DNA of 64,000 nt, taken from positions 3,224,001 through 3,288,000 of the forward strand of contig OX359191.1 in the NCBI GenBank assembly GCA_947172415.1. The letters are read 5' to 3'. The translations under genes and the position numbers were made by a program. Position 1 is the stretch's first letter; the number at the start of each line of letters is the position of its first letter. This DNA is from Chondrosia reniformis (taxonomy: Eukaryota; Porifera; Demospongiae; Chondrillida; Chondrillidae). Under the pieces are notes generated by a model. It did not search any database, was not told where the DNA came from, and saw only the letters and a program-made list of their open reading frames with translations. This document shows positions 1,869-49,500 of this stretch, one piece after another.

Positions 1869-2955
1869 GGATACAGCGATGGGCACGACAAACCAGAAAC
1901 GGTTTAATTTCGTATGAATTTTCTCAGAAAAATCAAATTTCTAGAAACTCACCTACCTCCACCCATTTGCAGTCATGGTATACCCTCTTGGAACTCTGGT
2001 ATGTCCACAATAAGAGTAAATCAACAAGTAAATTTAATTATAAAAAACATGTCTAGGCGATCCTTCACAATCAAAGCATCTTGTCCTAATTTACCATCAT
2101 GAAACTCTCTTTAATGCAAATGATGCCAAACCTGGAGGGGGACAGCCTCGTATGAGACCAGGAAGACTACCAGATGGGAGGGAGCAGTTAATGGTTTTTC
2201 GTGATGGAACACCAAAAGGCCTTGAAGTTGTTCTTCAGGAGCAAGGAGTTAACACTACACACCTTAATCGATGCGAAATATTAGAGGAGTTTCCAGACTT
2301 TAAGTATGAAAAGCCTATGGTGCAAACGTTTTTAGAAGAAAGGGGCCATGAATGTCTATTCAATCCAAAGGTATGTACAAATCAGGAAAAACTGAACGTT
2401 TAATGGGTGTACCAGTGCACATAGTCCTTGCCATGTTAATCAAATAAACAAAAAGTGTCAAATATTTCAGTTTATCACATTGAAATATAAGCACAAAGAC
2501 ATCCATTTTATAGAACTGAAAAAAGGTACTTTACCGTTTTCAAACACTTTCTAAAAACCTTCCGCTTTACAATCCGTGCACTCATTGAGTGTTCAGATTT
2601 TGCTGATTTGTACTGTACATGCCTCAAATCACCTCACAATGTGCTAATGTGAATGTGCTGGTATGTACTCACATAATAGTTCCACCCAGAGCTCAACCCT
2701 ATTGAGCGATGCTGGGCCAAGGCTAAGCAGTATACTAGAGAAAGATGTGACTACTCTATGGCTGGTTTAAGAAGGACAGTTCCACTTGCATTAGAGTCAG
2801 CTGATGTAGACCTCATTCTTAAATTTTTCAGAAAATACCGGGACTACAACCATGCCTATCTTAATCCAGATGGGAATGCCACCACTGGGAGAGCTGCAGA
2901 CGTGAAGGTGAAAGAATACAAATCTCATAGGAGAGTGCCCACCGAGACCATATAA
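1869..2955 (+). pseudogene. Intron-bearing DDE-transposase-like gene, 3' exons, with disabling changes
   Basis: Three exons can be assembled: 1869-1998, 2057-2370 and 2680-2955. Their introns (1999-2056 and 2371-2679) begin GTATGT and end TAG, and the codon phases match across both junctions. The joined frame contains FLRKIKFLETHLPPP, then YHHET where relatives carry YHDES (the presumed first catalytic Asp is His here, codon 2098-2100), then GTPKGLEVVL, and finally HPELNPIERCWAKAKQYT, a DDE_3-like motif with the usual catalytic Glu in NPIE, ending in YKSHRRV near a TAA stop. A TAA at 1905-1907 interrupts the first exon, and 5' exons are missing; satellite begins just upstream. Similar intron-containing genes are, to my recollection, common in cnidarian and sponge genomes; the exact transposon class is uncertain. 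I infer a decayed, possibly once domesticated, transposase gene. Confidence 0.7.
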
Positions 2956-4879: not shown

Positions 4880-7800
4880 CACAACTACTACATATAACTA
4901 GTACATACACATTTAACTAGTACATATGAATAATACCTACAGCTAGTTCATAGAACTTTTACCTAAAACTAGTTACTAGTACATACAACTAGAAAATGCA
5001 ACTAGTAAAATCCACTATTACCTATAGCTAGTTCAAATAAATATATAGTACAAACAATTACTGCATATAACTAGTACATACACATATAACTATTACATGT
5101 AAATAGTACACACAACTAGTAAATACAACTAGTACATGCAACTAGTACATACAACTAGTACATACAACTAGGACCTAAAACTAGTAAATACAACTATTAA
5201 ATACAACTAGTACATGCAATTAGTACATACAACTAGTACATAAAACTATTAAAAAAACAACTAGTTCATTCAACTGGTACACGAAACTAGTACATAGAAC
5301 TATATAGTCCATACACCTACTAAATACAACTAGTATCTAGCACATACAACTAGTACATAGAACTAGTCCATACAACTACTACATACACCTAGTATGTAGC
5401 ACTTACAACTAGTACATACAACTAATACATACAAGTAGTAGACACAACTAGTACACACAACTAGTACATACAACTAGTACATACAACTAGTACATACACA
5501 TATAACTAGTATATATATATAGTACGTACATTAAACTAAAACTCCAACTAGTACATAGAAGTATTACATAGAATTAGTACATACATCTAGTACATACAAC
5601 TAGTACATACAACTGGCACATACAACTAGTACTAACAACTAGTTCCCACAACTTGTACTTACAACTAGAACCTATGATTAGAACATACACATATAACTAG
5701 TACATATAAATAGTACGTACATTAAACTAGAACTCCAACTACTATATAGAATTATTACATACAATTAGTACACACATCTAGTACATACAACTAGTACAAA
5801 CAACTGGGACATACAACTAGTAAATATAATTAGTGCCTACAGTTAGTAAATATTATCAGTACTGGTACATACCACCAGTTCATGCAACTTGTACTTACAA
5901 CTAGTACCTATGACTAGAACATACACATATAACTAGTACATAAATATAGTACATACAACTAGTACATTAAACCGGAACTCCAACTAGTACGTAGAATTAT
6001 TACATACTATTAGTGCATACATCTAGTACATAAAACTAGTACATACAAATAGTACACACAACTAGTACACACAACTAGTATATGCAATTAGTACATACAA
6101 CTATTACATTCAACTAGTATATATAACTAGTACTTAAAACTAGTTAATTTAATTAGTACTAGTACATACGAGTACCTACTTAGAACGTAGTTTTACTAAT
6201 ACCAGAACCTACAACTAGTACATAAAACTAGTATATACAACTAGTACATCAAACAAGTACCTATAACTAGTACCCAACTACAACATATAACTAGTAAATA
6301 TGCATAAACCTGGTACCTATACACCTAGTACATACAATAAGTACCTGCAAACAGTACATACAACTAGTACATACAAGTAGTATACAATTAGTACATACAG
6401 CTAGTTCAAACAATTAGAACAAAAAACTACATACAATAATACCTATAATTACTATATATAACTTGTACTAGTACATTCAACTAGTACAAACAATTAGTAT
6501 TTACAACTACTAAATATTACCAGTAATAGTACAAACAAGTAGTTAATACAACTACTATGTAAAACTAGTAGATAACTAGTACATATTGGTAGTACATAAA
6601 ACTAGGACATACAACTACTACATTCAATTAATAAATACAACTATAACATTCAACAAGTACTTGCAACTAGAACCTACAACTAGTAAATATAACTAGTGCT
6701 ACTAAATACAACTAGTACCTCCCTAGTACCTAGTATAACTAGTACTAGAACCTACAAGTAGTACATATACTAGTATATACAACTAGTACATACAACTAGA
6801 ACATATAACTAGTACATACACATATAGCTAGTACATATAAATATTACATAGCATAGTACATACAACTAGTACAAACAACCACTGCGTATAACTAGTACAT
6901 ACACATGTAGCTAGTACATATAAATAGTACATAGCACAGTACATACCACTAGTTCATACAACTAGCACATACAACTAGTACCTATGAATATAACATACAC
7001 AACCTAACCAGTATCTAGTTTAACTAGTACTAGGACCTCCTACTAGTATATACAACTTGTACATACATATTAAATTAGTACATACACCTAGTTCTAAAAC
7101 TATTAAGTAGAACTAGTATATACTATATAGAACGAGTACATGATAACTAATACATATAACTAGTACATACAACTAGTACATATACAACTAGAACCTCCCT
7201 AGTACATAGTATAAGTAGTACAAGAATCAACAACTGGTACATACACATAGTACAAACAACTAGTACTTACAACTATTACATACAACTAGAACCTAGTAAC
7301 TAGTACATACCTAGTACATACAATTAGTACATAGAACTAGTTCAAACAATTAGAACATACAACTAGTACAAAGCTAGTACATACAACTAGTATAAACATA
7401 CAACTAGTACACCGAACATATACAAACAATTAGCACATACAACTAGTACTTTTAACTAGTACTTATACCAAGTTCACACACCTACTACATATAACTAATA
7501 CATAAACATATAACTAGTATATATGAATAGTACAAACACATAGTACATACAACTAAAACTAGTACATACAACTAGTATATATATAAAACTAGTACCTTTA
7601 GCTAGTACATACAAGTATTACATAAATTTCGTAGGTTCAACTAGTTCATAAAAGTAACTAGTAAATATAATTAGTACATGCGACTAGTATATACAACTAG
7701 TCCATACAACTGGTACATGCAACTAGTACATACAATTAGGCCATATAACAAGTACATACACCTACTACATATAACTAGTACAATACACGTATACCTAGTA

Positions 7801-8003
7801 AATGTAAACAGTATCTACAACTGGTACATACAGCTAGCGCATACAACTAGTACATATAACTAGTACCCACACATATAAATAGTACATACAAATAGTAAAT
7901 ACAACTAGTACATATATACAACTAGTACATAGACTTAGTACATACAACCAGCTAATACAGCTAGTACCCACAAGTAGTACATATACTTAGTACATAAACA
8001 TAT
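4880..8003 (+). repeat. 13-bp satellite, forward orientation
   Basis: This is an array of ACTAGTACATACA variants. The strand is very poor in G, which is nearly confined to the AGT of each unit. Longer composite units are visible, for example blocks containing CCTCCCTAGTACCTAGT and CAACAACTGG. From about 7185 onward the array is the mirror of the right-hand array near 20.9-21.0 kb. No gene is seen. Confidence 0.88.
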
Positions 8004-8763
8004 CAGGGAGTACGGTAGTACTCCCTATGTAGGGATGACACGTTTTTTTGCATTCCCCATACATCGGTATAGGAGCAAAATCCCGAAATAAGCTGAAAAT
8101 CGATAAAATAAGGCTATGTATAGCTAAATATACAATATACATACTCTAAATAGACCTTAAAGGCAAGCAAATATGTCCCGCTGGCAAAATAATAAACTTT
8201 AAAAATTCCCATTTTCGTCTTCTTCATATTCTTCTTGTTATTATTCTTCTTCTTCGTCAGCCATAACTAAAAAACTAAATAAGCTTTTGGACTAATTGTT
8301 AAATGAAACTATTGCAAATTTTCCGAACTGTATTCTTTTGTAGAAGCGAGAGCGATAACGCTATTATTGAGTATGACGGTTTTCATGGCCCCAGAGGCAA
8401 GGCCTCAATAAATTCGCCATTTTAATGACGTCATAATCAGTCGAAGATTGCAAAACCAAAATGGGTTTTAATACAATCAAATTCCTAGCTTATGCTCCAT
8501 AAAAAGTACAGAAACTAGAGAAAAATAAAAATTTTCTACAAAAATAGTGAAGATGTAGGGATGGCACAAAAAGCACTTAAACAAGAAAGGGATGTTACAC
8601 CGTGAAGTATTAGCTATGCATGAATCCTACAAGCAAGGGTGTTGTATGATTCATGCATATATAGCTAATGCTTCACTGTGTAACATCCCTTTCTTGTTTA
8701 TGTGCCTTTTGTGCCATCCCTACATCTTTACTATTTTTGTAGAAAATTTTTATTTTTCTCTAG
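8004..8763 (-). mobile_element. Foldback/MITE-like element, 760 bp (left palindrome copy)
   Basis: One end has a compact hairpin with 9-bp arms AGGGAGTAC (8005-8013) and GTACTCCCT (8018-8026) around a 4-base loop, followed by TGTAGGGATGACAC. The other end is a 249-bp near-perfect hairpin (8515-8763) whose arms begin CTAGAGAAAAATAAAAATTT and contain GATGTAGGGATGGCAC. The shared TAGGGATGRCAC motif in inverted orientation acts like a terminal repeat. The roughly 490-bp core has no convincing ORF. The copy at 19444-20203 has exactly the same length and reads as its reverse complement. It is a non-autonomous element of unrecognised family. Confidence 0.75.
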
Positions 8764-10954
8764 TATATAGTACATATAAATACTACGTACAACTAGTATA
8801 TATAACTAGTACAAACAACTGGTACATACACCCAGTACATACAAATGTAACAAGTACATATAAGTAGTACATACAACTAGTACATATAACTAATACACAT
8901 AACTAGTACATATAACTAATACATACATCTAGTCTAGTTTATACAACTGGTACCTCCCTAGTACGTAGTACAATTAGGACTAGAACCTACAACTAGTATA
9001 TACTACTAGTACATACAACTAGTACATGCAACTAGTACATATAACTAGTACATATAACTAGTACATATGACTAGTACATACACATATAACTAGTGCATAA
9101 ATATTATACATATAACTAGTACAAAAAAATAGTTCACACAAACAAACAAGTAGTTCATAGAACTAGTTCATTCCTAGTACCTAGTATAACTTGTACTAGA
9201 ACCTAAAACTAGTTCAAACATCTCGTACATACAACTAGTAAATACAATTAGGCAATAGTACATACAACTAGTACATTCAACTAGTACATACAAATAGTAC
9301 ATACAAAGAGTACATACAACTAGTACATATAAGTAGTACATACAACAATTACCCACTACTTATACATTCAACTAGTACAAATAACTCCAACATTCGCTAG
9401 TACATACAAATAGTTTTGAGTACATTTAAACTGTACATTCAACTAGTACTTACAACTAGTACATACAACTAGAAACTAGTAATTAGTACATACTTAGTAC
9501 ATACAATTAGTACATAGAACTAGTTTAAACAATTAGAACATACAACTACCACATACACCTAGTACGTACAAATAGTATTTAAAACTAGTTCATATAACTA
9601 GTACATAACTAGTACATAACTAGTACATTTCTAGTATATACAATTAGTACATAGAACTAGTTCAAACAATTAGAACATACAACTACTACATTCACCTAGT
9701 ATACACTATTTGTACATACAATTAGTACATACAAATAGTACATGCAACTAGTACATAAAGCTAGACTATACAACTAATAACTAGTACATATAACTAGTAC
9801 ATAGCTACTACTTACAACTAGTATATACATACAACTAGTGCATACAACTAATACAGACAATTAGTACATACAACTACTACATACAACCAGAACCTACAAC
9901 TAGTAAATATAACTAGTACTAGTACATAGAACTAGTACATAAAACTAATTCGATATAGTAGTACTTACAACTAGTGCGTACAACTAATGCCTACTTAGTA
10001 CCTACTATAACTAGTACTAGAACCTACAACTAGTACATACAGCTGGCGCATACACGTAGTATAGGCAACTTGTACTTACAACTGTTACATACAACTACTA
10101 CATAAAACCCGTACATACACATAAAACTAGTATATAAAAATAGTACATCCACTTAGTACATGCAACAAGTACATACAAAACGTACATACAACTAGTACAT
10201 ACAACTAGTACATACAACTAGTACACACAACTAGAAACTAGTACATACACCTAGTTCAAAGAACGAGTGCATAATACTAGAACATACAACTTGTATATAC
10301 AACAAGTACATACAAAACGTACATACAACTAGTACATACATTCAGGCAATAGAATATTCAACTACTACAAACAACTAGTACATACAAATAGTACATACAA
10401 CAAGTACATGTAACTAGTACATACAACAATTACACACTACTTATACATTCAACTAGTACAAATAACTATTACATTCGACAATTACATACAAATAGTATTG
10501 AGTACATACAACTAGTTCATACAACTAGTGCATACAATTAGTACACACGGATAGTACATACAGCTAGTAAATATAACTAGTACATACTACTAGTACATAA
10601 AACTATAGAGTACATATAACTGGTACATATAACTAGTAGAAATAAACAGTACACACAACTAGTTCATAAAACTAGTTCATACAACTAGTACATGTAACAA
10701 GTATCTAGTATATACAACTAGAATCTACCTAGTACATTGTATAAATAGTACAAGAATCAACAACTGGTACATACACATAGTACATACAACTAGTACTTAC
10801 AACTAGTACTTACAACTAGAAACTAGTAACTAGTACATACCTAGTACAAACAATTAGAACATAGAACTAGTTGAAACAAATAGAACATACAACTACTACA
10901 TACACCTAGTACATACAACTAGTACTTAGAACTAGTTCATATAACTAGTACATA
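8764..10954 (+). repeat. 13-bp satellite, forward orientation
   Basis: These are ACTAGTACATACA variants between the foldback element and the Tigger element. It contains repeated composite blocks, for example the block with CAAACAAACAAGTAGTTCAT near 9140-9160, also present at about 21.74, 23.33, 26.60, 35.80, 39.17, 52.74 and 54.86 kb. Near the Tigger end it is an almost exact mirror of the right flank from 14351. Confidence 0.88.
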
Positions 10955-11180
10955 CAGTGGAAGCTGAGTAAGCGGTCACCTTATTAAAGCGGTCACCTCC
11001 CTTTTCCGGTCGCCAACGTATACTCCCGAACAATCCACTATATTGAAGTATACATCGAGACCTTGTTAATGTGGTCACCTGCGTAATGCGTTTTGCGGTC
11101 GCCCTTCCGTGGCCCCGAAGGGATTTCTCTACTCTGTAATGCGGCCATACAGATTTGAAAGTACGTAAATGACAACAATT
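10955..11180 (+). promoter_or_regulatory. Tigger left terminal region with repeated GCGGTCACC motifs
   Basis: Within about 160 bp of the terminus GCGGTCACC occurs twice (about 10971 and 10988), with variants CCGGTCGCC, TGGTCACC and GCGGTCGCC further in. The same set appears inverted at 14140-14348. Iterated subterminal motifs are expected to be transposase-binding sites; here that role is inferred from position only. Confidence 0.5.
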
Positions 11181-11238
11181 TATCGATAAAATGTTCTAAA
11201 GAGTCTCCTTTACTCCTTCAGTGACTCTTGCAGCTTTC

Positions 11239-11583
11239 TTATAAAGTTCTGGTGTCCATCGAAATGATAAAACATGGAACTTCCAGCCCGAGACCAACAC
11301 CACGATTCACAGGGCTGCCAGTGACCTCACACACAATCTGGTTCCCTTGTCTGAGGAGGAAAAAGGGAGTATATCGAGCGAATGACCTTGGAACGTGACC
11401 TACAACCTGTCCGTTCTTCTTTACCGCTGTTGCCATTGGGTCATACGGGTTGGACGGCTCTGCTTCCACCTCTAAAACTTCTCCTGGCTCTGGTGTCCAC
11501 AAGTCTTTATAATCATGGAACCCACGAATAAACGATGTGTAGCTAAAGTGAGAAACAGATACAGAAGTGGCGTTCGCAGCCAT
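11239..11583 (-). CDS. HIRAN-domain protein, left copy, C-terminus altered by a 1-nt deletion
   Basis: This is a 114-residue ORF. Residues about 15-100 match a HIRAN domain: an FIRGFHDYKDLW opening strand, PSNPYDPMATAVKKNGQVVG (the NPYDP-x-A-V-x-V core) and HVPRSFARY. HIRAN domains bind ssDNA 3' ends in HLTF/Rad5 helicases and also occur as stand-alone proteins. Here nothing but the domain is present, with no helicase or nuclease part. The start codon lies 80 bp from the divergent transposase start at 11664, so the two probably share a promoter. Compared with the right copy, one T is missing from a T-run (about 11270), so the last residues read FIISMDTRTL instead of the fuller FYHFDGHQNFIRKLQESL. 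It may therefore be impaired. It lies inside the transposon's mirrored arm. Confidence 0.75.
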   Translation of the reverse strand: MAANATSVSVSHFSYTSFIRGFHDYKDLWTPEPGEVLEVEAEPSNPYDPMATAVKKNGQVVGHVPRSFARYTPFFLLRQGNQIVCEVTGSPVNRGVGLGLEVPCFIISMDTRTL

Positions 11584-11663
11584 ACGACCGAAGCTTGATT
11601 AGGTAGCAGCTGCCTTACACCCACGCTAACACGTTTCGTTATAGTTATGCTCGTGCCTCTAAC
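11584..11663. promoter_or_regulatory. Divergent intergenic region between HIRAN and transposase starts
   Basis: Eighty bases separate the HIRAN start (minus strand) from the transposase start (plus strand). The same spacing is kept in the right arm (13640-13719). No clear TATA box is seen. A shared bidirectional promoter is inferred from the head-to-head layout. Confidence 0.35.
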
Positions 11664-13202
11664 ATGCCTCGAAAAGAATTGACATTGAAACAACGTGTGG
11701 AGGTGATTAGGCACCAAAAGAGCCACCCAAAAGTAGGAACTCAAATTTTGGCAGAACGTTTTGGCTGTGGCAGAACACAGATTCAATCAATTTTGAAAGC
11801 CAAGGAGGAGATTCTTTAAGATTTTGAAAAGAATGGAAGTGAAGACAAGAAGAGGAACAGAAAAGCTGAATTTCCGGACATTGATGATGCTGTTTACAAA
11901 TGGTACTGTCTTGGTCGGGAAAGGAACATTCCCATATCAGGACCAATGCTCCAGGAGGAGGCCCATTTGATTGCTGAACGACTCGAGAATTCCCGGTTCA
12001 AGGCATCCAATGGTTGGCTCCAGTCATTCAAAGCTCGCCACAATTTAAAAATGCTCACAGTTTGTGTAGAGTCAGCTAGTGTTCCCCAAGGAACGGTGGA
12101 GGCATGGCATAGCAGAGTGAAGGATTTGGTAATAGGGTATGTACCAAAGAACATTTGGAACACTGATGAGACCGGCTGCTTTTTCCGAGCCCTACCTGAT
12201 AGAACCCTTGCTCAATCTGCTTCACAGTGTAAGGGTGGCAAAAAATCAAAAGACAGGGTGACTGTTGTCTTTTTCATCAATGCGGCTGGTGAGAAAGAAC
12301 CACCAATTGTAATAGGCAAGTCAAAATCTCCTCATTGCTTTGGCGGCCTCAAAGATAAGCAAAAACCACATGGAGTGCCATACTATGCAAATAAGAAAGC
12401 ATGGATGACTTCAGAGATTATGGATGATATCCTAGCATCACTTAACCAAAGACTGAAAAGGGAGGACCGCCACATTCTTCTTCTGCTTGATAATGCTCCT
12501 TGCCATCCTCGGGATTATCAAGACAGCTCCACATTTTCCAACATCAAAGTGGTATTCTTTCCAGTGAATACCACATCTCGTCTGCAACCACTCGATGCGG
12601 GAGTAATTCAAAGCTTCAAGTGCCAGTACAGGGCACTTTTGATCAAACATACATTAGCAGCAATTGATTCGTCAGCCAGCTTGTCCGCATTTGACATAGC
12701 CAAATCAGTGGATATCCTGACTGCCACTCGAATGATTAAACTTGCATGGCACAAAGTCAAAGAAGACACAATCATTAAGTGCTTCAAGAACTGTGGCGTG
12801 GTTGTGGGTAAAATAGACCACCTTTCAGATCCCTTCGCTGAAGTTGACGAATTGGAGGAGCTTGTCCACCACATTAACCCAACGATTTCTGCCCAGGAAT
12901 ACATTCAGGCTGAGGAAGACATGCCAGCTTATGCCACTGTGCCAGAAGGAACAACATTGGAAGATCTACGTACACAGTTGCGTGAAAAAGCCATCAGTGG
13001 AGAACTGCCATCCAATAGCCAAATCGAACTCTAGGACAACAGTGACGATGATGATGATGATGATGATGTAGGTAGTGAAAATGATACCCCAAGTTCAGAA
13101 GTGAACAATTACACCATCCACACGTTTGATGAAGCCATTAGAGTCTCACATGACTTGTTCCATTTTTTGACCACTACTGCACTTTATACATGTTCTACCT
13201 TG
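11664..13202 (+). pseudogene. Tigger/pogo transposase, near-intact catalytic domain, two stops
   Basis: Translation from the ATG at 11664 gives a pogo/CENP-B-like N-terminus (MPRKELTLKQRVEVIRHQ, then AERFGCGRTQIQSILKAK), broken by TAA at 11817-11819. The frame then runs open as 11946-13034 (362 residues from the next ATG) through the CENP-B-type second DNA-binding domain (ASNGWLQSFKARHNL) and the DDE_1 catalytic domain: Asp 12164-12166 in NTDETG, Asp 12489-12491 in LLLDNAPCHP, Asp 12594-12596 in LQPLDAGV, giving DD35D spacing. A TAG at 13032-13034 is followed by an in-frame poly-Asp tract (GAT repeat, about 13048-13071) and TFDEAIRVSHDLFHFL, typical of Tigger C-termini, until the frame enters the inverted copy at 13203. 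With two stops, full-length protein is not expected. A DNA-binding-deficient product from 11946 is possible but speculative. Confidence 0.85.
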
Positions 13203-13639
13203 TCCACAGTTCCTTGGGGAACACTAGCTGACTCTCCACAAACTGTGAGCATTTTTAAATGGTGGCGAGCTTTGAATGACTGGAGCCAACCATTGGATGC
13301 CTTGAACCGGGAATTCTCGAGTCGTTCAGCAATCAAATGGGCCTCCTCCTGGAGCATTGGTCCTGATATGGGAATGTTCCTTTCCCGAACAAGACAGTAC
13401 CATTTGTAAACAGCATCATCAATGTCCGGAAATTCAGCTTTTCTGTTCTTCTTCTTGTCTTCACTTCCATTCTTTTCAAAATCTTAAAGAATCTCCTCCT
13501 TGGCTTTCAAAATTGACTGAATCTGTGTTCTGCCACAGCCAAAACGTTCTGCCAAAATTTGAGTTCCTCCTTTTGGGTGGCTCTTTTGGTACCTAATCAC
13601 CTCCACACGTTGTTTCAATGTCAATTCTTTTCGAGGCAT
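13203..13639 (-). pseudogene. Inverted partial copy of the transposase N-terminus
   Basis: On the minus strand this repeats the transposase from its ATG (13637-13639) through the CENP-B-like DNA-binding region and stops at the palindrome junction (13203), before the catalytic domain. It carries the same premature TAA as the left copy, and its alignment to 12100-11664 has only scattered substitutions. It has no catalytic residues. Open frames called on the plus strand here (13101-13409 and 13357-13596) are antisense to it. Confidence 0.82.
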
Positions 13640-13719
13640 GTTAGAGGCGCGAGTATAGCTATAACGAAACGTGTTAGTGTGGGTGTATAGCAGCTGCTAC
13701 CCAATCAAGCTTCAGTCGT

Positions 13720-14094
13720 ATGGCTGCGAACGCCACTTCTGTATCTGTTTCTCACTTTAGCTACGCATCGTTTATTCGTGGGTTCCATGATTATAAAGAC
13801 TTGTGGACACCAGAGCCAGGAGAAGTTTTAGAGGTGGAAGCAGAGCCGTCCAACCCATATGACCCAATGGCAATGGCGGTAAAGAAGAACGGACAGGTTG
13901 TAGGTCAAGTTCCAAGGTCATTCGCTCGATATACTCACTTTTTCCTCCTCAGACAAGGGAACCAGATTGTGTGTGAGGTCACTGGCAGCCCTGTGAATCG
14001 TGGTGTTGGTCTCGGGCTGGAAGTTCCATGTTTTTATCATTTCGATGGACACCAGAACTTTATAAGAAAGCTGCAAGAGTCACTGAAGGAGTAA
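13720..14094 (+). CDS. HIRAN-domain protein, right copy, intact
   Basis: This is a 124-residue stand-alone HIRAN protein, nearly identical to the left copy (for example T to A near residue 16, T to M near residue 51, H to Q near residue 61) but with the C-terminus intact, ending FIRKLQESLKE. The core NPYDPMAMAVKKNGQVVG and the QVPRSFARY segment match the family; GLGLEVPCFY before the end is typical of related animal HIRAN proteins. No signal peptide or membrane segment is seen, so a nuclear or cytosolic site is likely. HIRAN domains recognise free 3' DNA ends, so a role in handling transposon ends or in host repair recruitment is conceivable, but this is inference. It lies head-to-head with the truncated inverted transposase copy, 80 bp apart, inside the transposon terminus. 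Confidence 0.8.
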   Translation: MAANATSVSVSHFSYASFIRGFHDYKDLWTPEPGEVLEVEAEPSNPYDPMAMAVKKNGQVVGQVPRSFARYTHFFLLRQGNQIVCEVTGSPVNRGVGLGLEVPCFYHFDGHQNFIRKLQESLKE

Positions 14095-15150
14095 AGGAGA
14101 CTCTTTAGAACATTTTATCGATAAATTGTTGTCATTTACGTACTTTCAAATCTGTATGGCCGCATTACAGAGAAGAGAAATCCCTTCGGGGCCACGGAAG
14201 GGCGACCGCTATATGCATTACGCAGGTGACCACATTAACAAGGTCTCGATGTATACTTCAATTAGCGGATTGTTCGGGAGTATACGTTGGCGACCGGAAA
14301 AGGGAGGTGACCGCTTTAATAAGGTGACCGCTTACTCAGGTTCCATTGTATGTACTAGTTATATGAACTAGTTCTAAGTACTAGTTGTATGTACTAGGTG
14401 TATGTAGTAGTTGTATGTTCTATTTGTTTCAACTAGTTCTATGTTCTAATTGTTTGTACTTGGTATGTACTAGTTACTAGTTTCTAGTTGTAAGTACTAG
14501 TTGTAAGTAGTAGTTGTATGTACTATGTGTATGTACCAGTTGTTGATTCTTGTACTATTTATACAATGTACTAGGTAGATTCTAGTTGTATATACTAGAT
14601 ACTTGTTACATGTACTAGTTGTATGAACTAGTTTTATGAACTAGTTGTGTGTACTGTTTATTTCTACTAGTTATATGTACCAGTTATATGTACTCTATAG
14701 TTTTATGTACTAGTAGTATGTACTAGTTATATTTACTAGCTGTATGTACTATCCGTGTGTACTAATTGTATGCACTAGTTGTATGAACTAGGTGTATGTA
14801 CTCAATACTATTTGTATGTAATTGTCGAATGTAGTAGTTATTTGTACTAGTTGAATGTATAAGGAGTGTGTAATTGTTGTATGTACTAGTTACATGTACT
14901 AGTTGTTTGTACTAGTTGTATGTTCTATTGCCTAATTGTATGTACTAGTTGTATGTACTAGATATTTGAACTAGTTTTAAGTTCTAGTTCTAGTCAGTTA
15001 TACTAGGTACTCGGAATGAACTAGTTCTATGAACTACTTGTTTGTTTGTGTGAACTAGTTTTCTGCATTAGTTGTATGTATTATATTTATGTACTAGTTA
15101 TATGTCTATGTACTAGTCATATGTAATAGTTATATGTACTAGTTATATGT

Positions 15151-17640: not shown

Positions 17641-19443
17641 GTACTAATTGTAGGTTCTAGTACTAGTTATAGTAGGTATTAAGTAGGCATTAGTTGTATG
17701 TACTAGTTGTTAGTACTACTTTTACGTACTAGTTGAATGTACTAGTTGTATGTACTAGTTCTAGTTATATTTACTAGATGTAGGTACTGGTTGTATGTAG
17801 TGGTTGGATGTAGTAGTTGTATGTACTAATTGTTTGTACTAGTTTTATGTACTAGTTGTATGTATATATTAATTGTAAATACTAGCTATGTACTAGTTGT
17901 GTGTATATACTAGTTTGTTGTTTATGTAGTAGTTGTATATGCCAGTTTTATGTACTCGTACTATGTACAAGTTCTATGTACTAGTTATGTACAAGTTCTA
18001 TATACTAGTTATGTACAAGTTGCATGTAGTAGTTATATACCAGTTGTACGCACTAGTTTGTATGTATGTACTAGTTGTATGCAGTTGCTATGTACTAGTT
18101 GTATATACAAGTTGTATGTTCTAGTATTATGCACTCGTTCTTTGAACTAGGTGTATGTACTAGTTTTTAGTTGTGTGTACTAGTTGTATGTACTAGTTGT
18201 ATATACGTTTTGTATGTACTTGTTGTATGTACTAAGTGTATGTACTATTTTTATATACTAGTTTTATGTGTATGTACGGGTTATATGTAGTAGTTGTATG
18301 TAACAGTTGTATGTACAAGTTGCCTGTACTACGTGTATGCGCTAGCTCTATATACTAGTTGCAGGTTCTAGTACTAGTTATAGTAGGTACTAAGTAGGCA
18401 TTAGTTGTACGCACTAGTTGTAAGTACTACTATAACGAATTAGTTGTATGTACTAGTTCTATGTACTAGTACTAGTTATATTTACTAGTTGTAGGTTCTG
18501 GTTGTGTGTAGTAGTTGAATGTAGTAGTTTTATGTACTAATTGTCTGTATTAGTTGCATGCACTAATTGTATGTATATATTAGTTGTAAGTAGTAGCTAT
18601 GTACTAGTTGTATGTACTAGTTATTAGTTGTATAGTCTAGCTTTATGTACTAGTTGCATGTACTATTTGTATGTACTAATTGTATGTACAAATAGTATTT
18701 ACTAGGTGTATGTAGTAGTTGTATGTTCTAATTGTTTGAACTAGTTCTATGTACTAATTGTATATACTAGAAATGTACTAGTTATGTACTAGTTATATGA
18801 ACTAGTTTTAAATACTATTTGTACGTACTAGTCGAATGTAGTAGTTTTTTCTACTAGTTGAATGTATAAGTAGTGGGTAATGTTTGTATGTACTAGTTAT
18901 ATGTACTAGTTGTGTGTACTCTTTGTCTGTACTAGTTGTATGTACTAGTTGTATGTTCTATTGTCTACTTGTATGTACTAGTGTTATGTACTAGCTGTAT
19001 TTACTAGGTGTATGTAGTAGTTGTATGTTCTAATTGTTTAAACTAGTTTTATGTACTAATTGTATGTACTAAGTATATACGAATTACTAGTTTCTAGTTG
19101 TATGTACTAGTTGTAAGTACAAGTTGTATGTACTGTTTGTTTGTACTAATTGTATGCACTAGTTGCATGTACTAGTTGTATGTACTAGTAGTGTATAGTA
19201 GTTGTAGGTTGTAGTCCTAATTGTACTACGTACTAGGGAGGTACCAGTTGTATATACTAGACTAGATGTATGTATTAGTTATATGTACTAGTTATATGTA
19301 TTAGTTATATGTACTATTTATATATACTAGTTGTATGTACTACTTATATGTACTTGTTACATTTGTATGTACGGGGTGTATTTACCAGTTTTTTGTACTA
19401 GTTATATATACTAGTTGTACGTACTATTTATATGTATTATATA

Positions 19444-20203
19444 CTAGAGAAAAATAAAAATTTTCTACAAAAATAGTTAAGATGTAGGGATGGCACAAAA
19501 AGCACATAAACAAGAAAGGGATGTTACACAGTGAAGCATTAGCTATATATGCATGAATCATACAACACCCTTGCTTGTAGGATTCATGCATTGCTAATAC
19601 TTCACTGTGTAACTTCCCTTTCTTGTTTAAGTGCTTTTTGTGCCATTCCTACATCTTCACTATTTTTGTAGAAAATTTTTCTTTTTCTCTAGTTTCTGTA
19701 CTTTTTATGGAGCATAAGCTAGGAATTTGATTGTATTAAAACCCATTTTGGTTTTGCCATCTTCGACTTATTATGACGTCATTAAAATGGCGAATTTATT
19801 GAGGCCTTGCCTCTGGGGCCATGAAAACCGTCATACTCAATAATAGCGTTATCGCTCTCGCTTCTACAAAAGAATACAGTTCGGAAAATTTGCAATAGTT
19901 TTGTTTGACAATTAGTCCAAAAGTTTATTTAGTTTTTTAGTTATGGCTGACAAAGAAGAAGAATAATAAGAGGAAGAATATGAAGAAGACGAGAAGGGGA
20001 ATTTTTAAAGTTTATTATTTTGCCAGCGGGACATATTCGCTTGCCTTTAAGGTCTATTTAGAGTGTGTATATTTATATTTAGCTATTCATAGCCTTATTT
20101 TGTCGATTTTCGGCTTATTTCGGGATTTTGCTCCTATACCGATGTATGGGGAATGCGAAAAAACGTGTCATCCCTACATAGGGAGTACTACCGTACTCCC
20201 TGA
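19444..20203 (+). mobile_element. Foldback/MITE-like element, 760 bp (right palindrome copy)
   Basis: This is the reverse complement of 8004-8763 with scattered differences and equal length. The large hairpin is at 19444-19692 (starts CTAGAGAAAAA, ends TTTTTCTCTAG). The small hairpin AGGGAGTAC/GTACTCCCT at the other end is followed by GATAT. The 79-codon frame at 19980-20219 runs off the element into satellite and is not considered a gene. Its mirror-image flanks show it arose by the palindrome, not by independent insertion. Confidence 0.75.
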
Positions 20204-21480: not shown

Positions 21481-24400
21481 GGTATACAAGTAGTACATAA
21501 AATTCGTAGTTACAAGTAGATCATAAAATTAGTAGTTACAAGTAGTTCATAAAATTAGTAACTAGTAAATATAATTAGTACATGCGACTAGTATATACAA
21601 CTAGTCCATACAACTAGTGCATGCAACTAGTACATACAACTAGGCCATATGAATAGTACATACACCTACTACATATAACTAGTACAATACACGTATACCT
21701 AGTAAATGTAAATAGTACATACAACTAGTACAGAACACTAGTTCACACAAACAAACAAGTAGTTCATAGAACTAGTTCATTTCTAGAACCTAGTACCTAG
21801 TACTAGGAATACATAAATACATACAAAAACATAAATACACTCAGTACATACAAATGTAACGAGTACATATAAGTAGTACATACAACTATAACATACAACT
21901 AGTACATATACCTAGTACATAAATATAGTACATACAACTAGTACAAATAATTAGTACATACCACAATTACCCACTACTTATACATTGAACTAGTGCAAAT
22001 AACTACTACATTCGACTAGTACATACAAATAGTATTGAGTACATACAACTAGTACATACAACTAGTGCATACAATTAGTACACACAAATAGTATATAAAG
22101 CTAGTAATTATAACTAGTACATACTACTAGTACATATAACTGGTACATATAAACAGTACATACAACTAATTCATAAAACTAGTTCATACAACTAGTACAT
22201 TCAACAAGTATCTAGTACATACAACTACAACCTACCTAGTACATAGTATAACTAGTACAGGGATCAACAACTGGTACATACACATAGTACATACAACTAG
22301 TACTTACAATTAGTACATATATACAACTAGAAACTAGTAACTAGTATATACTTAGTACATAGAATTAGTACATAGAACTAGTTCCAACAATTAGAACATT
22401 CAACTACAACATACACCTAGTAAATACAGCTAGTACATAACACTAGTACATACAATTAGACAATAGAACATACAACTAGTACATACAACTAGTACAGACA
22501 AAGAGTACACACAACTAGTACACATAACTAGTACATACAAACATTACCCACTACTTATACATTCAACTAGTAGAAAAAACTACTACATTCGACTAGTACA
22601 TACAAATAGTATTGAGTACATTCAACTAGTACATACAACTAGTGCATACAATTAGAACACACGGACAGTACATACAGCTAGTAAATATAACTAGTACATA
22701 CTACTAGTACAGAAAACTATAGAGTACATATAACTGGTATACATAACTAGTAGATATAAAGAGTACACACAACTAGTTCATAAAACTAGTTCACACAACT
22801 AGTACATGCAACAAGTATCTAGTACATACAGCTAGAACCTACCTAGTACATAGTATTAGTAGTACAACAATCAACAACTGGTACATACACATAGTTCATA
22901 CAACTAGTACTTACAACTAGTACATACAACTAGAAACTAGTAACTAGTACTCACCTAGTACATACAATTAGTACATAGAACTAGTACACACATATATAAA
23001 TAGAACATACAAATAGTAAATTCAACTATTGCATACAACTAGTACATAGAATTAGTACATACCACCAGCTAGTACAGCTAGTACCTACAAGTAGTACATA
23101 TACCTAGCACATACACATATATATAGTACATATAAATAGTACGTACAACTAGTATATATAACTAGTACAAACAACTAGTACATACACCCAGTACATACAA
23201 ATGTAACGAGTACATATAAGTAGTACATACAACTAGTAGATATAACTAGTACACATAACTAATACATATGACTAGTATATACACATATAACTAGTACATA
23301 AATGTGGTACATACAACTAGTACAGAAAACTAGTTCAAACAAACAAACAAGTAGTTCATAGAACTGGTTAATTCCTAGTACCTAGTATAACTTGTACTAG
23401 AACCTAAAACTAGTTCAAACATCTAGTACATACAACTAGTACATGCAAATAGTACATAAAAGAGTACACACAACTAGTACGCATAACTAGTACATAAAAC
23501 AATTACCCAATACTTATACATTCAACTAGTAGAAATAACTCCAACATTCGACTGGTACATACAAATAGTATTGAGTACATACAACTAGTTCATAAAACTA
23601 GTTCATACAAGTAGTACATGCAACAAGTATCTAGTATATAATACTACAACCTACCTAGTACATAGTATAAGTAGTACAAGAATCAACAACTGGTACATAC
23701 ACAAAGTACATACAACTAGTATTTACAACTAGTACTTACAACTAGAAACTAGTAACTAGTACATACCTAGTGCATACAATTAGTACATACAACTAGTACC
23801 CAGAACTATATAGCACTTAAAACTGGTTCATACAACTTGTACATAACTAGTACCAACAATTAGTACATACAACTGAGTTAAAACAATTAGAACATACAAC
23901 CACTACATACACCTAGTATATACAATTTGTACATACAATTAGTACATTCAACTAGTCCATACAACTACGACAAACAGCCAGGACATATAACTAGTACATA
24001 CCCCTACTACATATAGCTAGTAAATACACATACCTTGTAATTATAAATAGTACACACAACTAGTACATACAACCAGTACATAAAACTAGTACTTACAACT
24101 AGTACATACAACTAGAAACTAGTATATACAACTAGCTCACAGAATGAGTACATAATTCTAGAACGTACAACTTGTATATTCAACTAGTACATAACTACTA
24201 CACACAACTAGGAAAAACAAGTAGGACATATAAATAGTACATACACCTACCACATATAACTAGTACATACACTTTTACCTAATAATTATAAATAGTACAT
24301 ACAACTAGTACATACAACAATTACATCCAATTAGTATATACTACATACAACTAGTACCTTCCTAGCACCTAGTGTAACTAGTACAAGAACCTACCGCTTG

Positions 24401-43117: not shown

Positions 43118-45286
43118 TTAGTAGCACTCCCCAAGAAGTTCGTCCATAGAACTAAAACTGTTATCTTCAATGCCATCATCTTGCGCCGTAACAGCAGTAA
43201 TGTTTACTGAAGGAGATGGCACGACTTCTGAAACTGGTAGACTTTCTCTTTGAATTTCCAATTCTTCATCCCCATTTTGCCAAGTCCTACTAATAGCCCA
43301 ATCAGGTGTACCCCTAGGTGGCTCTGAAGGATTGGTAGGTCCTGGGACACGTTTCACCAGACCATTTCCTCTGCTCTTGGGCAGTTTTTCCAGCCTTCTA
43401 TCTAACTTCTTGATAAAGGCTTGAAAGACTATAATAATAGAAAATGGAAATTACACTTTTGCTTTAAAAATACAGTTTAATTTAGATACCTACCTTCTGA
43501 TCTCCAACAAGGCGAGGAAATTGTAAAAGTTACTTCATTTCTGTCATCATAGTCCGACTCTTCCTGAGACATACATTTTATAGGTAGCTTTTTCCAAGCA
43601 TTACTTTCATTAATACAGTACTCCTCCTCTGGAACAACTATTAAGGAATGGATATATATCACAGATATGGATAAATTTATCCAAGACTAGATGATGAATT
43701 GGTAACATATATATACCCTTTTTTGCCTGTTGTAAACTTTGGTGACTGCCTTGTTTTTTTTCTGAAATATCTTTCCTGCTGTCCCTTTCATCTAGTACAA
43801 GTCTACTTCTAGACTCGTAATACCTATAAACAGCACCTTTATATTGAAATTATGAAAAGAGTATTTAATGACTTTGTGATTGAATTCAAGTCCAACTTAC
43901 GTGATATAATTGCCTCACTAAACTTGTCCCTAAAATGACCCTTAATTTGTCTCCTCAAATACGTGGCCACATCTTGATTGTGTGCTTCTTTATATCTATA
44001 TAAAACAAAGTCTCATGCACTAAACACAACATGAGCCATGTATTCTTGCTAACTGAACTGTATATAGTACATAGTGTACCGAAGCATAATACATACCATA
44101 TATATATTATGTGTACACATTCAATAATCATGTATATATTATACTATCAATTATTTAAGCATTTATATGAATCTATATACCTACTAACTGCATCAGTAGA
44201 TACAACATGAGCCATGTTCTCATACTGAGCTAGCTCGGAGGAGAGTACTATCTAGTAGACATTCAATTAAATACTTTTAAAACAATTGGTGTAATTGCTA
44301 GCCGAGCATCAGTAGACACAACATGAGCCATGTTCTCATACTGAGCTAGCTCGGAGGAGAGTACTATCTAGTGGACATTCAATTAAAAACTTTTAAAACA
44401 ATTGGTGTAATTGCTAGCCGAGCATCAGTAGATACAACATGAGCCATGTTCTCATACTGAGCTAGCTCGGAGGACAGTACTATCTAGTAGACATTCAATT
44501 AAAAACTTTTAAAACAATTGGTGTAACTGCTAGCCGAGCATCAGTAGATACAACCTGAGCCATGTTCTCATACTGAGCTAGCTCGGAGGAGAGTACTATC
44601 TAGTAGACATTCAATTAAAAACTTTTAAAACAATTGGTGTAACTGCTAGCCGAGCATCAGTAGATACAACATGAGCCATGTTCTCATACTGAGCTAGCTC
44701 AGAGGAGAATATTAACTACATAGTAGACATTCATTGACAATTAATTGTAATTACTTTGCTATATATAAATTCTAAATGCCTGCCACTAACCCTAATTTTC
44801 CATTAAATAGGTTTGGAGCATTTGAGTGCAAGTGCTTTATTTCACCCTGTTTATGACAGGCAGGAGGAAGTATAATAAACCCAGCTGTTGTACATATATC
44901 AAACCAGTTGATTTAATATAATTTTTATTTCAATTATTGTAGTTATATATATACAAATTTACTTACAGAGAGCTCCTTAGGAATAAGTGTTTTTCCTTTA
45001 TTGTGGTTTTCCTGCATAGCAGTTAAAATATTGGTCTTATCCTCCAGAGCTTGAAACTTTTCTGAAGCATCTTCTGCTGCTCAACCACCTTCTCTAAAGA
45101 AGTTAAAACCTGTTGTTGAAATGGTTGTCTGCTCCCTGCCTGAATACTTTGCAGCTCATGATGTTGATTTTGAGGTGTTGTGGGGCGATTGAACGCTGAT
45201 TGTCTACCGATTGTGGGTCTCGTAGTTGACCTAGGAGTACTAGTAGAAGAATAAAATCCGTTTAAGCGACGACCAGAACTTGTCAT
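43118..45286 (-). pseudogene. EnSpm second gene (TnpA-position), six exons, one 1-nt frame break
   Basis: Exons on the minus strand: 45286-44967, 44233-44181, 43995-43901, 43836-43717, 43637-43494 and 43428-43118. All junctions are GT/AG and the phases agree throughout, giving about 347 residues. The first exon is Ser/Thr/Gln-rich (FYSSTSTPRSTTRPTIG), then a probable helix (TSLEKVVEQQKML); after this one A appears to be missing from an A-run near 45061, and the following KFQALEDKTNILTAMQENH is read one base out. Middle exons give AQYENMAHVVSTDA, YKEAHNQDVATYLRRQIKG and RAVYRYYESRSRL. The last exon ends acidic (SFSSMDELLGECY). No known domain is recognised. By position and partnership it may be the DNA-binding accessory protein that plant CACTA elements encode as TnpA, but no sequence similarity to TnpA is claimed. 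Confidence 0.68.
44190..44715. repeat. 116-bp tandem repeat, 4.5 copies, containing exon 2
   Basis: CATCAGTAGA starts at 44191, 44307, 44423, 44539 and 44655, an exact 116-bp period with only a few substitutions. Each unit holds the 3' splice site and most of exon 2 of the minus-strand gene (44181-44233 in the lowest copy). Only the lowest-coordinate copy, last in transcription, keeps the 5' splice site (AG then GTATAT). In the others the exon runs into GCTCGGCTAGC without a donor. Confidence 0.88.
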
Positions 45287-46510: not shown

Positions 46511-49500
46511 TTATAAAACTGAGAAGTTAAATGGCATAGGATTCACAACAATAACTTCATCTTCAGGATAAGGTGGAATAGTGATGGTTAGTTTTACATA
46601 TGCACATCTTGCTATTATCCTTTGTAGAGGAATGTATTGGTGGTTAGACAAAGCAGGGTCATACACATTCTCTACAACTATGCATGGAGATCCAAAATAG
46701 TTTGGTTGAGGGTGGAATTTATACCACCAAATTTCAAGAGCTATGTGGTCCAATGCTAGCTCTTCTCTAGATTCATTGGTGAAGAGTATCTTATGTTTCA
46801 GTATGTTCCTGACCTCACCTATCCTTTCAGAATTGTCTCCAAGAGGCCACTTTGCTGTAACTATCTGTCCTTTCTTTATCTTCTCCCCTGCATAAACCAT
46901 ATTCTTCGATGTCTCTGCATATGCACTTGAGGTATTAATAAGGACAGTCTGGCCATACCGAGATTTGTACATGGTAGATAGCCCAGTCTGCTCATCCAGC
47001 CTAAGTACTGATGTGGTACTGTGCTTCAGTTGCATCAAATAAATTTCATGTTCTTGCAAGGCATACTGTAATTGTTGACTGGGTGAAAGATAATTTTGAA
47101 GAGTTTCAATTCTATGTAACTGACTTACTGAGATCACAGTAGAACAGTCATCAATGAAGACATCATTAACATATGACTTCAGATGGTCATAACCTGGTGG
47201 TACAGACATTGTACGAATAAATTGTCCTTTCAAAAATATTTTGGCTAGTTGTTTTTCAAAGCTTTTGCGATTTGTCGAATAAGCAGCAATTGTTCCATTA
47301 TACCTTTCAAAGGGAAAACACCAATAGCCATAGAGAGGGCCATAATCAAGTACACATGATGTTAGATGGAGATGTAAATGCATGTTCATTGTGCATGACT
47401 GTTTTCCAAAATAATTTTGCACGCCTTCACAAAATGCTTGCAGTCTCAACCCTGCCTCTTCATTCATATCTTTCTTGATAGCTCTTCGGCACAACAACCA
47501 ACAAGCATGAACAAAGTTCATCCAAATATCATAAAGTTCTGGTGTAATAGAATCTTTCAGGACTATTGGACTGTATATTATTGTCCAGTTCCTCCATTGA
47601 TCAGCAATAAAACCACTGTAATTGGAATCAATTTTCATTGGTAAACGGCCAATCTTCACAGGAGTAACAATTGCTTTAGAAACATTTTTAACTATACCCA
47701 TATTAATCAAGTTGTTTTCCAAGAGTAGCTTCATGAAGTACTTGGCAGAACCCTCAAATAGGTTGTGCATAGGATCAATAACATGATATCGGATGATATC
47801 AAAATATGGTAGGTCAAGCAGCTGACAAAACCTTAGGCCATGTTCCACTTCAAAGGCTCTCTGCCTAGAATTGTTAGGTAACTCTTTGTATTTATAAGCA
47901 AGTTCCCTATGAAGAGAAGAATCACGTTTAGGCCAAATGCTAATGTCAAATCCTGAAAAATCTGGCTTTTCTCCAAAATGATTTACCTTAAATGATTTTA
48001 GGCATTTTGAACATCCTAAAGTAGCTGAATGTCCTGGAAGAGCAAGAACTTTCCGAGTCGCGGGAATGTCACAAGCAATTAGATTTATTACAGCATGTAA
48101 CTTCAAGGACACACTGCCAACTTCAATTTCATAACCTTCATATAATGTTATTAGTTCTGATGCCAATGGTTGTAAAAAGGAATTAGGATTTAAAGGTGGC
48201 TCCTTGGGACCTGGAATTATTCCTATAAGTATAGCATTTTCCTCTTTAAATCTGAGGGCCCTGGATAGATTTAAAATCGACAGGTATTGCACCAACAGAA
48301 TACTGTGTGTGTTTAAATGGTTGGAACCAGTCTACATTTAAGGCTAAGTACAACCATAAGGCGTCATCATCATCTAAAGTACTGGAAAATTCTTTCCAAA
48401 CCAGTCCATCATGTATATCACATAACAAATTGGCATCATCATTTTTCCTTTGCTTCCAAGAGAAGCATAATTCTAGCATACAAGGCCTTGAAAGCATAGC
48501 CTCTAATGATGAACATAGTGAAATGTATGGAAATGTCAATTTAGGATAAATGCTTTCTTCAAAGAATAGGCTATTACCACATATGCCTCTCCGTGAAGCC
48601 TGTGAATGTACAGGAGCCTCCTGATGAATACACTGATTTAATTGTGGGTTACGGCTATCATTGTCATATACAGAGTAACATTTGTCACACACAGTAAATA
48701 ATTTTGGTTGCAATTCTTCTTTTAGCTTAAGGAATTTGTAGCCATTTACCAAAGAAGTTGGAAAAGCAGCAGAAAACTGTGAAAATATTTCGGAAGAAAC
48801 AGCTGCTTCCATTTTGGCAAACAATGACTTTAAACTTTTTAACAAGGATGTCATTGCATTGTCTCCAATATTATTCAGCACAGACCAGAGCAGCAGGATG
48901 TGCATGAATTCAGACAAGTGTGGAATCCTCTCATCTGACCTTAAGTCACCAATTTCTTCACTTTCTTCATCAGAGTCAAAGTCTTCCAAATTGATATCAC
49001 ATTGAGAAATCTACAACAATACAAATGAGTACATAATTATCTATCTATCTATCTATCTAACTATATATATATGCGATTGTGCATATGATTATGTTCACAT
49101 TAGTAAAAACAAGGTGCAGTGTGAACATTGCAGGAAGGCTACTCATTAATTCATAAATCATATACCGTGGGAAGATCATGCTGGTACAGAAAGTAGTTTA
49201 AGGGCTGAATTATGGCAGTGCAATTAAGCTTTTAGTGAATTGGATTATAGAGATAGTCATTGCGTACCTAGTATAAAATTCATTGAGGTGAAGTGGGTTG
49301 AATAGTAAAAATACTGTAAAAAATAAATTATGTCTAAAGAAAGTCCACAACACATGCAAAGTGGGAACTATATAATTATGATAAGCACTCCTGCACAGGT
49401 CCTTGTTACATACCTCTGTGGATGTGTCTGAAAAAATTTTTATTTCTTCAGGATGATCAGCTTCAGTATATTCAAAATTGTTCAATAATTCTGATTCTTC

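Follow-up and report, generated by a model that had tools for sequence, protein, structure and literature searches.

The DNA analysed here (the window) comprises 64,000 nucleotides of the demosponge Chondrosia reniformis (assembly GCA_947172415.1, contig OX359191.1, positions 3,224,001 to 3,288,000 of the forward strand) and consists mostly of a 13-bp minisatellite (TGTACTAGTTGTA and its complement) with transposon islands. One of these islands, at 10955-14348, meets the minisatellite abruptly at both borders and carries a transposase of the Tigger family of pogo transposons together with a small gene for a stand-alone HIRAN protein. Read inward from the left, the order is TA, transposon terminus, subterminal repeats, HIRAN gene (reverse strand), 80 bp, transposase gene (forward strand) and a reversed copy of the left part that extends to 14348. 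A preliminary description of the locus had reported the HIRAN open reading frame (ORF), with its NPYD core and GLEVPC motif, as lying head-to-head with the transposase, 80 bp apart, between terminus and transposase; its coordinates, strands, motifs and arrangement were all recovered. The sequence comparisons given below support the presence of a real HIRAN ORF within a Tigger-type element.

HIRAN gene, transposase and transposon end

The HIRAN gene has its own start and stop codons, is free of introns and encodes 124 amino acids. Both of its copies score above the curated Pfam cut-off of 24.7 bits for HIRAN (PF08797), the left one with 28.2 bits (E 1.7e-6) and the right one barely, with 24.8 bits (E 1.9e-5), which upholds the proposed match to the family's hidden Markov model. 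No Pfam family other than HIRAN was matched by either copy at E values up to 1. The length of the ORF is weak evidence because dinucleotide shuffling of 13638-14346 yields an ORF of that length in 16 of 1000 cases, and the case for HIRAN therefore rests on the profile match. Under the codon usage of the transposase, the HIRAN coding frame is the best of the six (0.051 vs -0.040 to -0.108).

A profile of 25 phage HIRANs, from which the window rows were excluded, matched exactly two of the 320 six-frame segments of at least 40 amino acids in the window (E 8.2e-15 and 3.2e-14), and these two segments are the HIRAN copies. The phage proteins had been collected by a core-motif pattern (at least 120 contigs, 41 after length, redundancy and score filters, 25 of the 41 aligned) and ordered by how closely they resemble the window protein, a bias that favours this result. 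The invariant columns of the alignment (E42, P43, N45, P46, Y47, D48, A51 and V54) were discarded as evidence, the search pattern having demanded them. Matches in PHROGs were to phage families of unassigned function, with a best E value of 4.2e-5. In a sequence search of the PDB, five HLTF HIRAN sequences ranked first, weakly (E 0.14-0.21), followed by the bacterial protein Ps01740 (E 0.91) and a ribosomal protein (E 1.8). Two AlphaFold models, one from the single sequence and one with the 25 phage HIRANs added, were of low confidence (mean predicted local distance difference test score 55.2 and 58.9, respectively) and were used for ranking matches only. With regard to the HIRAN beta-barrel fold, the top Foldseek matches of both were HLTF HIRAN chains (best E 0.069 and 0.0042). 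Of the 17 best chains for the alignment-based model, 13 belong to HLTF HIRAN and four to the bacterial protein lp_0118; E values were 0.0042-0.041 over the first 16 and 0.46 for the 17th.

The stop-free pieces of the transposase match CENP-B_N (E 6.5e-8), HTH_Tnp_Tc5 (1.1e-19) and DDE_1 (4.5e-39) in Pfam, and the portion that follows the first stop has a PDB match to CENP-B (E 2.5e-6). The catalytic spacing, determined by eye on the translation, is DD34D and lies within the DD29-36D range published for pogo/Tigger elements; the Pfam names and the spacing agree with those given for Tigger (PMC7386202, like most papers cited here drawn on in excerpt). The transposase gene is a pseudogene, with two stops, TAA at 11817-11819 (in both arms of the symmetry described below) and TAG at 13032-13034, and a lost end. 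An alternative genetic code was rejected as an explanation of these stops: TAA is also the codon that terminates the HIRAN frame, and the element has decayed in other ways too.

The left end opens with CAGTGGAA..., directly after TA, and the first letters following the TA, read inward, are CAGTGGAAGCTGAGTAAGCGGTCACC.... The subterminal repeat GYGGTCRCC has eight matches in the whole window, four per mirrored end, against 0.18 expected from shuffles, and the distance from the HIRAN stop codon to the innermost of these repeats is 106 bp (right arm). The coordinates of all features are collected in Table 1.

Table 1. Features of the HIRAN-bearing Tigger-type island and its flanks (window positions)
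Feature	Coordinates	Strand	Remarks
Host minisatellite flank, left of the mirror	10376..10954		9 mismatches with the right flank over 581 aligned bases
Original (left) Tigger-type terminus	10955..11105	+	TA before; four GYGGTCRCC repeats at 10972, 10989, 11071 and 11095
HIRAN gene, left copy, original position	11213..11583	-	28.2 bits; reading frame shifted near residue 105 by a 1-base difference
Gap separating the two start codons	11584..11663		80 bp
Tigger/pogo transposase pseudogene	11664..13202	+	CENP-B_N, HTH_Tnp_Tc5, DDE_1; gene end and right transposon end missing
Inverted duplicate of 10955-12100 (transposase start, gap, HIRAN, left terminus)	13203..14348
HIRAN gene, duplicated copy	13720..14094	+	Open for 124 codons; 24.8 bits
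Mirrored Tigger terminus	14201..14348	-	Copied from the left end (original right end lost); same four repeats
Host minisatellite flank, right of the mirror	14349..14927

Inverted duplication extending into the host flank

The arms 10376-12100 and 14927-13203 correspond to each other with zero net length change (10376 + 14927 = 12100 + 13203). They differ at 8/435 positions in the transposase part (1.84%), 8/82 in the gap (9.76%), 6/374 in HIRAN (1.60%), 7/252 in the subterminal part (2.78%) and 9/581 in the minisatellite flank (1.55%, or 98.45% identity; the 581 include the last two transposon bases). For comparison, the highest ungapped identity with the nearby array of opposite orientation among 19 background windows (581 bases each, same satellite) was 72.5%. 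Outside this palindrome, the next mirrored stretch listed has 510 bases at 91% (14418-14927 with 22490-22999), and matches further out pair 8134-8931 with 19276-20073 (96%) and 7173-7948 with 20998-20207 (91%).

Because the mirror continues into the host minisatellite, we conclude that there was one inverted duplication after insertion: the element is a single insertion that was later duplicated, inverted, together with its flank. Two independent insertions in opposite orientation were ruled out, the flank being mirrored as well. Given that the symmetry includes the flank, the two arms count only once, as an insertion that has one original end. Accordingly, the presence of HIRAN in both arms, which had been noted at the outset, was confirmed along with the 124 open codons of the right copy, but the copies are not independent and the left one is frameshifted. 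The right-hand terminus was copied from the left end, which is preserved together with its TA; the original right end is lost. The TAA stop at 11817-11819, being common to both arms, most simply predates the duplication. The left part of the element and its flank would then have been copied in inverted orientation later than both the insertion and the first transposase stop, with a join within the transposase gene, and both visible ends would thus be copies of the same left end.

One alternative is that 10955-12100 and 13203-14348 are the element's own long terminal inverted repeats (TIRs), with HIRAN doubled by design. TIRs of 392-856 bp occur in some unclassified insect pogo elements (PMC7386202), and the range listed for intact Porifera Tigger elements is 20-741 bp (PMC9219625). 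A transposed unit is, however, expected to have unrelated flanks, whereas the flank here is mirrored with as few mismatches as the interior parts and far above the satellite background, and the right arm ends inside the transposase gene; we consider long TIRs of this kind very improbable. It is also very improbable that the mirror is an assembly artefact, that is, a chimeric or mis-joined palindrome over an ordinary single insertion whose right end is unseen. Satellite palindromes are error-prone in assembly, but a single-molecule artefact would leave near-identical arms, not arms that differ by 1.55-2.78% (and by 9.76% across the gap); moreover, the right flank has expanded internally.

Two further features of the arms were observed. 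Arm-to-arm divergence in the gap (11584-11663 and 13638-13719) is some 3.5 to 6 times that of the other parts. A 14-base imperfect palindrome (GTTCCCCAAGGAAC) lies at 12081-12094 and 13209-13222, near the inner arm ends, by the join, and could have been the seed of a fold-back.

The ratio of nonsynonymous to synonymous change in HIRAN, to which the preliminary description had pointed, was obtained between the two arm copies only. Over 104 codons compared, five differ, four of them nonsynonymously (5 bases) and one synonymously, in addition to a 1-base indel; 5 of 238.5 nonsynonymous sites and 1 of 73.5 synonymous sites have changed. The copies give no indication of constraint after the duplication: the changes are few and the ratio is consistent with a lack of constraint, and the divergence of the flank equals that of the HIRAN copies. 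The element is dead at this locus. Selection on HIRAN, if any, would have acted before the duplication, as the kept HIRAN core suggests.

Proposed place of the HIRAN gene in a Tigger lineage

HIRAN is probably an accessory gene of a two-gene Tigger lineage whose elements are built of a TIR, a HIRAN gene in reverse orientation, a short gap and a transposase gene in forward orientation. The principal alternative is a one-off capture, in which this Tigger copy took up the HIRAN of its host or of another element between its end and its transposase, without the gene being characteristic of the family. A capture would fit three facts: the known insertions number one, stand-alone HIRAN-like genes occur commonly in other settings such as phages, and most complete Tigger elements are described with a single ORF (PMC9219625). 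Against it, the HIRAN gene is complete, intron-free, tightly packed (80 and 106 bp from its neighbours) and matches the transposase in codon usage, whereas a captured fragment would more often be partial or arbitrarily spaced. On this evidence a capture appears unlikely.

Several points weigh against the two-gene lineage as the explanation. Capture of a host HIRAN gene by this copy alone would look identical. The known material amounts to one insertion that has one original end, and the viral, genome, phage and plasmid collections scanned yielded no further copy of the element. TA is common in the minisatellite, which makes the terminal TA weak evidence. The open (right) HIRAN copy exceeds the Pfam cut-off by 0.1 bit only, no Foldseek match of either model reached an E value of 0.001 or better, and the changes in HIRAN since the duplication fit the expectation without selection.

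The searches for relatives returned little. In viral contigs, scans with the HIRAN gene, the transposase and the TIR yielded no relative; two of them gave 1 and 37 pattern matches, none of which was confirmed by tblastn, and the HIRAN of phage Elanor as a query found no match there. The C-terminal HIRAN motif had no match in genome contigs. The N-terminal motif had three in the same contigs (one in Enterococcus, two in Treponema), which were judged to be chance: their tblastn E values, 0.51 and 0.004, were obtained over short stretches selected by the pattern, and their translations are without the HIRAN core. The one genome examined behind an N-terminal-motif match contained no PF08797 match (0/1). 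No relative was found in the plasmid collection, and no close relative in the phage collection, where three weak records appeared (E 0.3-0.4). Two of these records come from a single Xanthomonas phage; Pfam identifies its protein as a HIRAN (E 2.2e-16). A phage-like HIRAN domain has also been reported on a virome contig (PMC7785012).

The view that HIRAN was not a described feature of Tigger elements agrees with the literature search: no paper linking HIRAN with Tigger or pogo was among the matches listed, and none pairs HIRAN with pogo and mariner as whole words. The word is absent from the available main text of pogo/Tigger surveys (including PMC7325037 and PMC9219625) and occurs 0 times in the main text of PMC3537659.

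Stand-alone HIRAN proteins whose C-terminus is similar are numerous in invertebrate protein sets; should this be borne out, the HIRAN-Tigger arrangement may prove widespread. The original HIRAN paper is that of Iyer, Babu and Aravind, from 2006.

The layout suggests a model of the two-gene element. One copy, in which HIRAN would be a fixed member as in the rest of its family, would have inserted at a TA of the 13-bp minisatellite. The 80-bp gap is a possible shared promoter region, out of which HIRAN would be expressed divergently from, and together with, the transposase. We infer that the HIRAN protein is most likely a small DNA-binding helper that acts on the single-stranded ends or gaps of cut-and-paste transposition, and it may assist either the completion of transposition or host repair. 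The broader proposal, that a Tigger/pogo lineage carries a conserved divergent HIRAN gene whose protein acts on transposition intermediates or steers host fork or gap repair, is tentative and on balance somewhat doubtful. If true, the HIRAN-bearing lineage would be a eukaryotic cut-and-paste transposon with a repair-type helper protein of its own; it would also serve as a natural test for the repair step that is limiting in pogo transposition and offer a transposon route for the spread of HIRAN genes among genomes.

Other elements of the window and comparison with known systems

The minisatellite changes orientation about five times across 1347-63046. A second Tigger-type element occupies 1-1348, with a transposase ORF at 84-983 (DDE_1, E 7.4e-25) and its left half beyond the window. 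Its transposase is 32% identical to that of the HIRAN element over the aligned part. Its right end reads CAGTGAATTATGTGAAG... on the reverse strand, stops at 1348 and meets the minisatellite at TA; it ends in the same way as the HIRAN element, with CAGTG... and TA against the minisatellite. No HIRAN-like sequence was found between the transposase of this second element and its right end. Broken frames at 2152-2955 (forward strand) contain, by eye, the phrase HPELNPIERCWAKAKQ, which we take to be a motif suggestive of a Tc1/IS630-type DDE transposase remnant; the ORF at 2152-2400 has no Pfam match. Arrays of opposite orientation also border the block at about 42.5-49.9 kb, whose flanks are not mirrored above background (75% at best among the ten best rows). 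Within this block are a 116-bp tandem repeat distinct from the 13-bp satellite (44190-44733, 4.7 copies, 96% alike) and, at 46511-48989 on the reverse strand, two long ORFs, one matching Transposase_21 (tnp2) below threshold (27.5 bits vs a cut-off of 28.6), which are possibly a CACTA/EnSpm-like remnant. Rfam gave no match over the window.

Stand-alone HIRAN genes of phages, carried on viral DNA, resemble the window gene in encoding small proteins, but the proteins are only 17-29% identical to it (25 aligned) and transposase-like sequence was found beside none of them (0/125 loci). The HIRAN of HLTF (PDB 4s0n, 4xzf, 4xzg, 5bnh and 6kcs) shares the NPYD core and is the best-ranked, though weak, match in both sequence and fold. 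In HLTF the domain is part of a large RING/SWI-SNF protein, whereas the window protein is stand-alone. The HLTF HIRAN binds a dinucleotide, with a cavity bordered by Y72 and Y93 (PMC4666394), and an N90A-N91A change disrupts its function (PMC11237066). In the alignment from the PDB search, the equivalents of N91 and Y93 are kept in the window protein and N90 is replaced by S; the stretch matching Y72 falls in the low-confidence N-terminal region of the model. The binding of 3' DNA ends, ascribed to HIRAN domains in the preliminary description, holds for HLTF but does not extend to Rad5, whose HIRANs bind single-stranded DNA and PCNA with no detectable preference for a free 3'-hydroxyl (PMC7804152). 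Binding to single-stranded DNA or to the clamp is therefore as open for the window HIRAN as end binding.

Pogo/Tigger transposases gave rise to domesticated genes, among them TIGD1-TIGD7 and CENP-B (PMC7325037). The element at 10955-14348 shares with the Tigger family the combination of CENP-B_N, HTH_Tnp_Tc5 and DDE_1, the DD34D spacing and the TA beside its terminus. It differs in gene content: pogo elements have one or two ORFs, which encode the transposase (PMC7386202), most complete Tigger elements are about 2.8 kb long with a single ORF (PMC9219625), and published elements are described with transposase ORFs only, HIRAN going unmentioned in the excerpts of these two papers. In carrying an additional gene, the element resembles the ciliate Tec and TBE elements, which are of Tc1/mariner type and have extra ORFs, although the extra gene named for Tec encodes a site-specific recombinase, not a HIRAN protein (PMC7325037).

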